A stretch of DNA of 53,693 nt, from assembly GCA_022843175.1 (NCBI GenBank), contig JALHOE010000034.1:1-53693 (forward strand), written 5' to 3'. This DNA comes from Deltaproteobacteria bacterium. GTDB taxonomy: Bacteria; Myxococcota_A; Polyangia; Polyangiales; JADJMO01. The position numbers were made by a program, and so were the translations under genes. The notes under the pieces are model-generated. The model was not told the DNA's origin, searched no databases, and saw only the letters and a program-made list of their open reading frames with translations. This document shows, piece by piece, positions 19,668-48,611 of the stretch; the stretch's first letter is position 1; every line of letters starts with the position of its first letter.

Positions 19668-19802
19668 ACTCCCTCGCCCTCTCCTTCCGCCCGGCACTGC
19701 TCGGACCGCGGGAATGGACCGGCTCGCCCCCCGGTTCGCCTTGAATCCTGCGGACCGTGCTGCGCATCGCACCTACGCAAAGCCTTGACGGCAGGGCTGC
19801 TC

Positions 19803-20249
19803 ATGCGAGGCTTCAGGGAGTCGATGGCCGAGGTCCGAGACGAAACCCCCGATATTCCCGCGGCGCGCGTGAGCGATGCGCCGCCGCTGCCGCTCGATCG
19901 CCTCGTCGCCCTCTTGCCCGACGAGGGCGAGCTCGACGCGCGGTGGGGCGCGAGGCGTCAGGGCGAGCGCATTCCGTTCTGCAAGCCGGTGGCGATCAGC
20001 CGCGTCGAGAAAGAGGGCAGCAAGGTCTCCGAGGTGGAGATCGAGGCCATCTTCGAGGGCTGGGCGCTCAACGTCTGCCATGGCGGCATGCGCATCATCA
20101 CCGAGGAGCCGCTCAAGAAGGGCGACTCGATCCAAATCGAAGTGAACAGCGCGGGGAAGAACTACACCGGCACGGCCGTGGTGCAGTGGGTCCGCGAGCA
20201 GGCCGACGGGGTCGTCGCCGGGCTGCAGTTCACGAAGATGGACGACTGA
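19803..20249 (+). CDS. PilZ-domain protein
   Basis: 148 aa from ATG 19803 (TTG 19785 and ATG 19824 are alternatives). The C-terminal 100 residues are PilZ-like: RRQGERIPFCKPVAIS supplies the basic N-terminal switch region, WALNVCHGGMRI matches the (D/N)-x-S-x-x-G loop with Cys for Ser, and PLKKGDSIQIEV plus AVVQWVREQADGVVAGLQF complete the barrel. PilZ domains bind cyclic di-GMP and control motility or polysaccharide. The Arg spacing and the S-to-C change make binding uncertain. No partner domain is fused. The 135 bp before it hold no clear terminator. Confidence 0.8.
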   Translation: MRGFRESMAEVRDETPDIPAARVSDAPPLPLDRLVALLPDEGELDARWGARRQGERIPFCKPVAISRVEKEGSKVSEVEIEAIFEGWALNVCHGGMRIITEEPLKKGDSIQIEVNSAGKNYTGTAVVQWVREQADGVVAGLQFTKMDD

Positions 20250-20265
20250 CGAGACCGCGTACGAC

Positions 20266-20345
20266 GGGGCCGCGCTCGTAAGAGCGCGGTTGCCCTGTCC
20301 ACGTCTCGGCAGCTCGGGCAACCGCGGGCTTACGCCCGCGGCCCC
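20266..20345. repeat. REP-pair (BIME-like) element / bidirectional terminator
   Basis: Two 30-nt arms (20266-20295 and 20316-20345) are inverted copies of each other, and each arm is itself a hairpin: CCGCGCTC-GTAA-GAGCGCGG on the left and CCGCGGGC-TTAC-GCCCGCGG on the right. The arms differ only at stem positions that change in compensating pairs, which indicates selection on folding. The element fills the gap between the convergent PilZ and lipoprotein stops, so it may end both transcripts. There is no T-tract. Confidence 0.8.
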
Positions 20346-20355
20346 TTCGTTTGGA

Positions 20356-21357
20356 TTACTTCGGGTTGTGCGGCTCGAGTAGCTGCGTGGTGATGATGCC
20401 GTCGTGGACGACGACATTGCGCCACGAGACGTCGTACTTGCTGCCGTCTTCCTTGTGGCCGACCGCGACGACCCGCAGCTTGCGGTTGAGCGGCACCTCG
20501 AGGAGCGTGAACAGAGAGGAGCGCGACGTATAGGTGCGGCCCACGTCGGGGAGCTCGGAGTCGGTGAGGAAGACGCTGCAGAAGCCCGCGCCGCACTTGC
20601 CGGGCTTGAACACCTCGCCGGTGACCGCGTCGCGGAGCTCGATCTCGGCGTACTGCATGTAGCGGCGCTGGCAGTCGAGCACACGACCGGCGACGATGCC
20701 GGTGCCCGGCGGGGGCCGGTAGCTCTTGTCGCCGGTGAGCGCGAGCTTGAAGAAGTCGCTGCGCTCGAGCGTCACGCCCTGCCAGCGGATGGCCTCTCTG
20801 CCAGCGAGCTTGATCGGCACGTGAAGGTCGTCGAGGCCGTAGTAGTTGTCGAGCTTGTCGCTCGCGCGCACGCGGTAGGCGACGCGCACGCCCTGGGGCA
20901 GGAGCGTCTTGAAGAGGCCCTTGTCGTCCGTGGTGATGGTGGCGCTCGGCGGGGTGCTCGGGTCGTTGTTGAAGAAGATGTCGACCGTCTGGTTCGCGAG
21001 CTTGTCGGCGCCGCCGGTGCCGAAGCCGATGAGCTCGATCTCCTTCTCCTGCAGCGTGCCGGGCGGGACGGCCGCGTCCTCGGCGCCAGCCTCTACGCCG
21101 CCGTCGAGGATCATCGGGGTCGTGCGCTCCATGCCGAGACAGGAGAGATCCGCGGGCTTGTCCTGGCTGTCGATCAGCACCGTGACCGGCGGGGTGGCGC
21201 CCTTGGAGTCGAGCTCGACGTCGATCTTCGGCGCGTCGACGACGGGGGGCGGCGGCTCGCGGTCGTGCACGCAGCCGCCGGCGGAGCCGAGCGAGACCAT
21301 CAACGCGGAAGTAAAGACTGCTGCCGTCGAACCAACGATAACGAAGCGTCGCAACAC
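20356..21357 (-). CDS. Surface lipoprotein A (paralogue of the 21510 gene)
   Basis: 333 aa from GTG 21357, preceded by a GAGAGGAG Shine-Dalgarno. The signal ends at GGC (Cys29), then a Pro/Asp linker. It shares a run of motifs in the same order with the next gene: ADLSCLGM, a beta-sandwich-like middle with YRVRAS, FKLALTG ... GTGIVAGRVLDCQRR, AEIELRDAVTG, LTDSELPDVGRTYTSRSSL. The module resembles carboxypeptidase-regulatory/transthyretin-like folds (TITTDDKGLFKTLLPQG, RVAYRV). It is probably exposed on the cell surface. It is the last gene of an apparent three-gene minus-strand unit. Function unknown. Confidence 0.75.
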   Translation of the reverse strand: MLRRFVIVGSTAAVFTSALMVSLGSAGGCVHDREPPPPVVDAPKIDVELDSKGATPPVTVLIDSQDKPADLSCLGMERTTPMILDGGVEAGAEDAAVPPGTLQEKEIELIGFGTGGADKLANQTVDIFFNNDPSTPPSATITTDDKGLFKTLLPQGVRVAYRVRASDKLDNYYGLDDLHVPIKLAGREAIRWQGVTLERSDFFKLALTGDKSYRPPPGTGIVAGRVLDCQRRYMQYAEIELRDAVTGEVFKPGKCGAGFCSVFLTDSELPDVGRTYTSRSSLFTLLEVPLNRKLRVVAVGHKEDGSKYDVSWRNVVVHDGIITTQLLEPHNPK

Positions 21358-22519: not shown

Positions 22520-22549
22520 GGGCAAGGGCAAGGGCAAGGGCAAGGGCAA
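22520..22549. repeat. Hexanucleotide repeat (GGGCAA)x5
   Basis: Five perfect GGGCAA units fill the gap between the ceramidase-like stop (22553) and the lipoprotein B start. The length could vary by slippage and change the spacing or the messenger structure ahead of lipoprotein B. Confidence 0.85.
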
Positions 22550-22552
22550 GGG

Positions 22553-46596: not shown

Positions 46597-48611
46597 GCTA
46601 CGACCTCTCGTTCGCCGTACGCCCCGGTCAGAGCGCCCCCTCGCTCGACTCGCTGCGCGACTTCTTCAGCACGCGGCCCCACTGGAGCCTCTCCGACGAC
46701 GGGGCCGAGTACCGCAACACGGCCACCGGCGTGGCGATCGACGTCTCGCTGCGCGAACGCTCCGCCGACGATCCGGAAGAGCGCGCCCCCGTCTCGCTGC
46801 GCATCGGACAGATGCGTCCGCACGTGACCGCCCTCGAGGCCGAGGACGAAATCGCGGCGCTGGTCCGCACCTTCGACCTCCTCGTCGACGATCCGCAGAC
46901 CGACGGCATGGGCCGCGGCGAGTTCACGCCGCTCGCGTTTCACCGTGGGTTCGAGGCGTTCAACCGCTTCGCGCACGAGGTGAACCTGCGTCGCATGGCG
47001 AACGATCCGCCGCCGGCGATGCCGCGCGAACGGCTCGAGCGGGTGTGGCGCTGGAACCGCGAGCGCGACTCGCTCGCCGAGCGCGTCGGCGACGACCTGT
47101 TCGTGCCGCAGATCTTCTACGCGCTCGACGACTCCGAGGTCCGTACATTCGTCGCGTGGGCCGATGACGTCGCGGCCCGCGTCCCGGAGGTCGACTCGAT
47201 CCAGACGACGCGCGCGCACGTCCCGTGGTCGGCGATCGCCGAGGCCATCGCTGCGGCGCCGCGCGAGGACGCTCCGATCCCGCACTATCACGTCGACGGC
47301 GACGTGCTCGCCGAGGTGTTCGCGGCGATCGGGCGCGCCGAGCCGCGGCCGAACCCGCGGATCCTGCCGCCGGGCATGGTCCTGACGAAGGAGCTGGTCG
47401 ACGAGTTCGCCCTCGAACCCGGCCTCCGCGCGCGCCGCAAGCGTGCGATGGAGCTGCGGATCGACGGCCAGATCGCCTGCAACACGGGCCGCGCGCGCGA
47501 GGGGCTGCGCATGTTGGCCGACGCCGCGGAGCTCTCGCCCGAGGACTACGAGCTGCAGCACGAGGTCGCCTGGACGGCCCACCAGAACAACCACCACGCG
47601 CTCGCGTTCGAGTGCGCTGCCCGCGCGTTCGCCGCCCAGCCGCGGCCGTTCGACGCGCTCCTCGCAGCGGCCAACGGGTGGTACGTGGCGCGCTTCGAAG
47701 AAGCCCTGGTGTTCGCCGATCGGCTCCTCGAGCTCAACCCCGAAGAACGCAATGGTCACCTGTTGCGCGCCTCGATCCTCACCGACCTCGCGCGCTACGA
47801 CGAGGCCGTCGAAGCGGCCGACCGCGCGCTCGCCGTGAAGTACGACGGCATGGCCGAGAACGTCAAAGCGTTCGCGCTCGCCGCGGGCGGTCGCGACGAC
47901 GAGGCGCGCGCGTCGTACGAGCGCGCGCTCGTGGCGCTCGCCAGCGAGGGCGACGCCGCCGATGTCGTCAGCCGTCGCGCCTATGCGCTCCTTGGGCTCG
48001 GCCGCGGCAAGGAGGCGCTGGCCGCCGCGAAGAAGGCCGACGCGCTCGAGAAGGACTCGTTCCTCACGCTCCAGAGCCTCGGCCGCGCGTACATGATGCT
48101 CGGCAAACCGAAGGAGGCGCTGGTGCCGCTGGCCAAGGCGATCCGCTCGCGGGCGGCGGCGCCGATGGCATCGTTCTACGCCGCCAAGGCGCACGCGCTG
48201 CTCGGCGATCGACGCGCGGCCGAGTCGGCGCTCGCCGCGGCCAGCGTGAGCACGCACTTCGCCGCGCTCGCCGCGCGGGACGCCGACCTGAGCAAGCTGG
48301 TGCGAACCGCGCCGGCCCCGACCGCCGCCCCGGCGAAGAAGGAGCCGGCGAAGAAGGAGCCGGCGAAGAAGGAGCCGGCGAAGAAGGAGCCGGCGAAGAA
48401 GGAGCCGGCGAAGAAGGCGGCGCCCAAGAAGGCAGCGCCGAAGAAGAAGGCAGCGCCGAAAAAGAAGGCCGCGCCGAAGAAGAAGGCCGCGCCCAAGAAG
48501 GCCGCGACAAAGAAGAAGACGGCGACCAAGAAGGCCGCGACCAAGAAGGCCGCGACCAAGAAGAAGAAGCCCGCCGCCAAGAAGAAGACGGCGAAGAAGC
48601 GATCGAAGTAG
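46593..48611 (+). CDS. TPR protein with a histone-H1-like Lys/Ala/Pro tail
   Basis: 672 aa, ATG 46593 overlapping the methyltransferase stop (ATGA). The N-terminal 170 residues are an uncharacterised domain (SYDLSFAVRPGQSAPSLDSL ...). Residues about 290-560 are tetratricopeptide-like helical repeats (ALAFECAARAFAAQPRPFDA, ARYDEAVEAADRALAVKYDG, AYMMLGKPKEALVPLAKAIR). Residues about 575-672 are a basic AAPKKK/AKKEP tail like eukaryotic histone H1, which in myxobacteria and Bdellovibrio often binds DNA. It lacks a signal peptide, so a cytosolic protein tethered to DNA through its tail is the simplest reading. The tail contains in-frame tandem repeats. Confidence 0.85.
   Translation: MSYDLSFAVRPGQSAPSLDSLRDFFSTRPHWSLSDDGAEYRNTATGVAIDVSLRERSADDPEERAPVSLRIGQMRPHVTALEAEDEIAALVRTFDLLVDDPQTDGMGRGEFTPLAFHRGFEAFNRFAHEVNLRRMANDPPPAMPRERLERVWRWNRERDSLAERVGDDLFVPQIFYALDDSEVRTFVAWADDVAARVPEVDSIQTTRAHVPWSAIAEAIAAAPREDAPIPHYHVDGDVLAEVFAAIGRAEPRPNPRILPPGMVLTKELVDEFALEPGLRARRKRAMELRIDGQIACNTGRAREGLRMLADAAELSPEDYELQHEVAWTAHQNNHHALAFECAARAFAAQPRPFDALLAAANGWYVARFEEALVFADRLLELNPEERNGHLLRASILTDLARYDEAVEAADRALAVKYDGMAENVKAFALAAGGRDDEARASYERALVALASEGDAADVVSRRAYALLGLGRGKEALAAAKKADALEKDSFLTLQSLGRAYMMLGKPKEALVPLAKAIRSRAAAPMASFYAAKAHALLGDRRAAESALAAASVSTHFAALAARDADLSKLVRTAPAPTAAPAKKEPAKKEPAKKEPAKKEPAKKEPAKKAAPKKAAPKKKAAPKKKAAPKKKAAPKKAATKKKTATKKAATKKAATKKKKPAAKKKTAKKRSK
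48333..48407 (+). repeat. Five perfect 15-bp in-frame repeats (AKKEP)x5
   Basis: GCGAAGAAGGAGCCG is repeated five times without error inside the TPR/H1-tail gene, followed by looser AAPKKK units. Perfect copies imply recent expansion and likely length variation between strains. Confidence 0.92.

Follow-up and report, generated by a model that had tools for sequence, protein, structure and literature searches.

Between two convergent genes in a 53,693-nt stretch of a deltaproteobacterial genome (the window) lie two inverted arms of 30 nt that differ from one another only where their stems are paired. The original prediction called them a REP pair and read the paired differences as covariation inside a single locus, and hence as strong evidence of selection on structure. 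The locus raises the question of what kind of element this is, why its two arms are unlike and whether it serves the adjoining genes as a terminator. The features concerned are the following.

19785 to 20249, plus strand: gene for a PilZ-domain protein (PF07238, E 5.3e-8; TIGR02266), start codon uncertain
20262 to 20265, plus strand: CGAC, the arm 1 portion of the conserved 5' extension CGA[CA] of repeat family F1
20266 to 20295, plus strand: REP arm 1, family F1, CTC/GAG stem subtype (sequence, folding, covariance model); stem 20270-20277 with 20282-20289, loop GTAA at 20278-20281, 5' foot GGGG, 3' tail TTGCCC
20296 to 20315: spacer of 20 nt between the arms
20316 to 20345, minus strand: REP arm 2, family F1, GGC/GCC stem subtype (sequence, folding, covariance model); stem 20322-20329 with 20334-20341, loop 20330-20333
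20346 to 20349, minus strand: CGAA, the arm 2 counterpart of the F1 5' extension
20356 to 21357, minus strand: gene for a conserved lipoprotein-like protein of unknown function (same-genus orthologue with 52% identity)

Over positions 20261-20350 the inverted arms extend to 35 nt each, are 86% complementary and are separated by 20 nt. Read in a common orientation, arm 1 is GGGGCCGCGCTCGTAAGAGCGCGGTTGCCC and arm 2 is GGGGCCGCGGGCGTAAGCCCGCGGTTGCCC. They mismatch at positions 10, 11, 18 and 19 only, which make up the pairs 10-19 and 11-18. Each arm separately formed a stem of 8 bp closed by a GTAA loop and beat nearly all shuffles, with z-scores for the two arms of -2.95 and -3.09 as DNA and of -3.46 and -3.36 as RNA. 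When all 90 nt were folded as RNA, a single long hairpin was predicted (-62.5 kcal/mol, z -6.3) that is broken at the differing positions. Alignment and folding thus confirmed two inverted tetraloop hairpins of 8 bp whose differences are confined to paired positions. The predicted placement between convergent genes was also correct, since the arms begin 16 nt past the stop of the PilZ gene and end 10 nt from the stop of the opposing lipoprotein-like gene. Elsewhere in the window, a hexamer array (GGGCAA x5.5) is found at 22520-22552 between two minus-strand genes; TTGCCC, the tail of F1, is complementary to this hexamer, which may be a coincidence. Tandem repeats of 15 to 33 nt, rich in GAAGAAGGCCGCGCC, occupy 48330-48592 and resemble a Lys/Ala-rich protein tail.

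Copies of the element were collected by pattern, covariance model and region from the genome, a fragmented assembly of 9.75 Mb in 470 contigs. The motif CCGCGNNCNTANGNNCGCGG occurred 33 times genome-wide, compared with 2 occurrences of the reversed control. The original prediction had named a genome-wide covariance-model search as its check and the lack of other copies as its refutation. With a model built from 15 seed units, the search returned about 100 units at E<=1e-5, both window arms included, and arm 2 shared the top score among the genome's F1 matches. From the motif and the model matches it follows that the window element is not a chance structure, and the refutation by a lack of other copies fails. 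A 30-nt F1 pattern with at most 3 mismatches gave 117 matches against 6 in the control, some of the weakest being F2 (see below) or chance, so that the genome holds about 100-117 copies of F1. In F1 the 5' extension CGA[CA] stands ahead of the foot GG[GA]G and carried 1.1-1.5 bits per position in 91 copies. F1 therefore has the first trait of a REP, a palindrome of 20-40 nt in many copies per genome.

A sister family, F2 (about GGAGCCGCGRNCGTNAGNGAGCGGGTTGTC), was matched 257 times in the genome and never in the control. Both families have the head GGRGCCGCG and a GTNA loop in common, and the F2 foot is GGAG. In the F2 stem, pair 9-20 is a G.A mismatch in 53 of 54 units and pair 10-19 is mostly A.G (37/54), so F2 alone folds less stably. 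The G.A mismatch of the F2 family, seen for example in loci L141-L155, is often a tandem mismatch, and the adjoining pair is either G-C or C-G through compensated changes. In the sampled loci, F1 and F2 units were neighbours within 120 nt in 16 cases, with about 0.6 expected from their densities.

Covariation was then assessed in the sampled loci, 525 kb chosen around F1 copies with 91 F1 and 54 F2 units. Among the 91 F1 units, pair 10-19 was GC in 51, CG in 34, TG in 4, AT in 1 and unpaired in 1, and pair 9-20 was GC in 83 and CG in 5. Some double changes were seen at pairs 11-18 and 12-17, and compensatory changes were visible in the 15 seed units as well. These counts show that hairpin pairing is maintained across the F1 population, and at the scale of the genome they support either hairpin selection or templated correction. 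The compensatory variation that had been predicted is real across the genome's copies, but it is not covariation that arose within a single locus. The two arms of the window are standing subtypes seen elsewhere, the CTC/GAG subtype at one other site (C20:19936). The reading of one locus as strong evidence of selection did not hold up: since the subtypes are standing and doublets prefer unlike arms, a locus by itself says little on selection.

Templated correction, by intrastrand quasi-palindrome repair or by gene conversion among copies, could have made the compensated changes in place of selection on the hairpin. Templated mutagenesis at quasi-palindromes is established. Pairing is nearly universally perfect in F1 copies whose spacers are unlike, as such correction would give, and copies within a genome share descent, so that the counts are not independent. 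However, correction should have removed the imperfect F2 stem, which persists in a large population, unless F2 is very young. We consider templated correction in place of selection improbable as the source of the changes.

The arrangement of the units accounts for the unlike arms. In the sampled loci, 38 of the 56 neighbouring pairs were head-to-head and 3 were tail-to-tail. Inverted doublets with a short spacer, by which REPs and REPINs are recognised, are therefore the common form here. The doublet spacers were 1-48 nt long, mostly 4-32 nt, and dissimilar in sequence between doublets, and the spacer was rejected as a conserved part of the element. Of 28 F2 doublets, 26 combined an arm of the GACC/GGGA type with one that was non-GACC (14.3 expected, p<5e-5), and 13 of 18 F1 doublets combined a G10 with a non-G10 arm (8.5 expected, p=0.03). 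The free loop base was equal in only 2 of the 26 heterotypic F2 pairs, where 9.0 were expected (p 5e-4). All these p-values are optimistic because the copies are related by descent. Further loci were likewise heterotypic, including BIME-like alternating arrays at L152 and L158. At L152, positions 45-194 hold the array GCGC(+) GACC(-) GCGC(+) GACC(-) with two identical inner spacers of 7 nt, suggesting that a whole heterotypic doublet was duplicated. In the window, a CTC/GAG arm faces a GGC/GCC arm, which is a heterotypic doublet; its arms differ since doublets here typically join two hairpin subtypes, with each arm retaining its own palindrome and no long perfect palindrome between the two. 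This rule of unlike-arm pairing is well supported and is the most interesting aspect of the system. Heterodimers of REPs whose stems or loops differ have been described before and are called unexplained (PMC3733652).

The rule may be active or passive. If active, subtypes that differ in compensated stem pairs and in the loop base are obliged to pair face to face: a transposase would accept heterotypic doublets only, or like pairs would be purged. We regard this as a possibility on the unlikely side. Alternatively, doublets that form long perfect inverted repeats are lost by SbcCD cleavage or replication slippage, and the arms need not differ functionally. Such a loss has been proposed earlier for other REP dimers (PMC3733652). 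The longest run shared by partner arms was indeed shorter than after random re-pairing, at 12.5 against 14.7 in F2 (p 0.0016) and at 11.1 against 12.5 in F1 (p 0.10). However, the loop base also differs in heterotypic F2 pairs, which hardly changes the longest run, and descent from a few ancestral heterodimers would explain the run length and the loop base equally well. The loss of perfect repeats as the cause is to us likewise rather unlikely. Whichever applies, the heterotypic doublet remains the preferred description of the window element.

The genomic context was compared with that of all neighbouring genes in the sampled loci. F1 groups lay between convergent genes in 26 cases, between tandem genes in 27 and between divergent genes in 4, compared with 87, 263 and 81 gene pairs, respectively. 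This is an enrichment between convergent genes (odds 4.3, p 3e-6) and a depletion between divergent ones (p 0.017). The majority of the F1 groups were at most 25 nt from a stop codon, and between tandem genes the distance from F1 to the stop of the upstream gene was smaller than that to the start of the downstream gene (p 3e-4). The same context, near stop codons, has been published for other REPs (PMC3733652). Like REPs, the groups were mostly extragenic: 15 of 89 overlapped a crude gene call, and the others were intergenic or at a gene edge. Genes were called by a simple codon model, so single cases may be wrong. With many copies, mostly near gene ends and often in inverted doublets, the label of a REP pair proved apt, and the window element is very probably a REPIN, that is, a head-to-head REP doublet, whose arm difference comes from heterotypic pairing.

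The placement raised the possibility of a bidirectional terminator, common to both convergent genes and selected at the locus for termination. The short distances to both stops, the stability of the RNA hairpins on both strands and the enrichment of F1 between convergent genes would all suit this function. However, a scan for intrinsic terminators found no T-tract after either hairpin and no terminator-like site, so that termination, which had been put forward as a check, is unsupported for these G+C-rich hairpins. F1 also lies between tandem genes and, by the crude calls, in some cases within genes. Moreover, orthologues of the PilZ and lipoprotein-like genes are near each other and convergent in a same-genus genome, and no REP was found at that locus; it is not a clean empty site, as other genes intervene. 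One relative of the PilZ gene was found in a groundwater deltaproteobacterial assembly. A scan of the window against Rfam gave no match above the gathering threshold. We conclude that a bidirectional terminator selected at this locus is very unlikely, although Rho-dependent or some other termination is conceivable. Some genuine effect on the 3' ends of both mRNAs at this locus, as suggested by the position and the hairpin stability, is plausible, if somewhat less likely than not.

A search of the genome with the RAYT profile gave six matches, all below the cut-off. Five of these Y1 transposases (C367, C139, C15:70243, C46 and C187) were rejected as mobilisers; none had flanking F1 or F2 units, and the closest such unit lay at C139, at a distance of about 1.8 kb. 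The sixth is the following.

G000:C15:18297-18797, minus strand: candidate Y1/HUH transposase gene (RAYT-profile match, F2-flanked)

Five tandem F2-like units follow this gene on the 3' side, and its putative TTG start is overlapped by an F2 unit in inverted orientation. The gene lies directly behind another that reads as LexA-like from its translation (L055 1325-1978, about 18.17-18.82 kb of C15). The flanking hairpins have the foot GGAG or AGAG. The C15 protein gave weak matches to Y1_Tnp and REP_Tyr_transpos, below every curated cut-off, and no relative with a solved structure was found in the PDB by sequence. Its motifs EHVH, WA and YVLYEQ resemble NHVH, W[TA] and YV[VI][AENY]EQ of TnpA-Y1 class 3 (PMC6006769), being one residue off in two motifs. 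Genes of that class are reported to be flanked by high-copy REP-like structures (PMC6006769), and the C15 protein is likewise a stand-alone HUH protein whose flanking hairpins are high-copy in the genome. The foot CnGA reported for class 3 (PMC6006769) is absent from the C15-flanking hairpins and from F1 and F2. Distant homologues occur in a single further genus of the order, with one weaker match in another family, and they sit partly among repeat arrays of their own; in that further genus they lie inside tandem arrays of other palindromic units (L067, L068 and L069).

Since F2 lies on both sides of a divergent class-3-like Y1/HUH transposase, F1 and F2 probably form a REP/RAYT-type system. 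It is a fair inference from this arrangement that the C15 protein mobilises F2. None of the Y1 genes found in the genome is flanked by F1, and the connection of the C15 protein to F1 comes from the similarity and the clustering of the two families; that the protein also acts on F1 we rate at slightly below even chances.

The elements were compared with known systems. Like the REPINs and head-to-head REP dimers of Pseudomonas and Stenotrophomonas, they are short palindromes in inverted pairs with at least 100 copies, are lineage-specific, lie beside stops and are enriched between convergent and tandem genes. In contrast to REPINs, F1 does not flank a transposase gene that would be its own, the feet are CGA[CA]GG[GA]G in F1 and GGAG in F2, and the 5' tetranucleotide GT[AG]G of the refined REP definition (PMC3686654) is absent from both. 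F1 is therefore a REP in the broad sense and not a strict GTAG-REP. E. coli BIMEs similarly combine two opposed palindrome subtypes, Y and Z (PMC2817692, PMC8266576), at times in alternating arrays, whereas sequences, feet and spacers differ, and BIME units are distinguished by loop length where the subtypes here are told apart by compensated changes at stem pairs and by single bases of the loop. The activity of E. coli REPs depends on a conserved mismatch in the stem (PMC8266576), which recalls F2, and the E. coli RAYT gene is REP-flanked in a way comparable to the C15 gene. CGTC-tagged REPs (PMC3733652) have an 8-bp stem, a 4-nt loop, head-to-head dimers and no dedicated flanking transposase, as does F1, but carry A/T at the first two stem pairs where F1 has G/C. 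Membership of F1 in this group, which is marked by an unpaired CGTC at one end and a stem of 8-9 bp, was rejected: F1 does have an 8-bp stem, but all 91 copies begin it with C-G pairs, and the letters CGTC are found in F1 nowhere but in the 5' extension when the opposite strand is read.

Of 37 further genomes sampled from the order, all but two lacked the F1 core, and these two had a single match each. A same-genus genome gave one weak partial match to the F1 model. In genome contigs of 84,980 species, from which the nearest records were possibly left out, the 28-nt F1 core had no match. From this near-absence we infer that F1 is most likely a young, lineage-specific expansion. A literature search found no relevant description of REPs in myxobacteria and no paper on RAYT and Sorangium; the repeat is of an ordinary kind but seems to be undescribed in this genome.

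Taken together, the following course can be proposed. A Y1/HUH transposase acting on single-stranded DNA, for which the class-3-like C15 protein is the best candidate, would recognise the folded hairpin by its foot, stem and GTNA loop and copy or move the doublet as a non-autonomous element. Insertions would survive chiefly just past stop codons, as neither genes nor promoters are disrupted there, and would accumulate between convergent genes or after the upstream gene of a tandem pair. Transcription probably enters the doublets from at least one side, if not from both, and the mRNAs would gain a stable 3' hairpin that may alter decay or read-through.

With these results, REP/REPIN biology reaches into a lineage of Deltaproteobacteria, probably a myxobacterial one. 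Two families exist there side by side, the perfect F1 and the mismatched F2, and they appear to be tied to a rare class of HUH transposase. They also advise caution, since a compensated difference between nearby repeats may reflect two standing subtypes and not local covariation. For the question why REP dimers are so often heterodimers, the unlike-arm rule supplies a countable data set. If the rule is active, this genome would put the reasons for the existence of REP heterodimers to a natural test.
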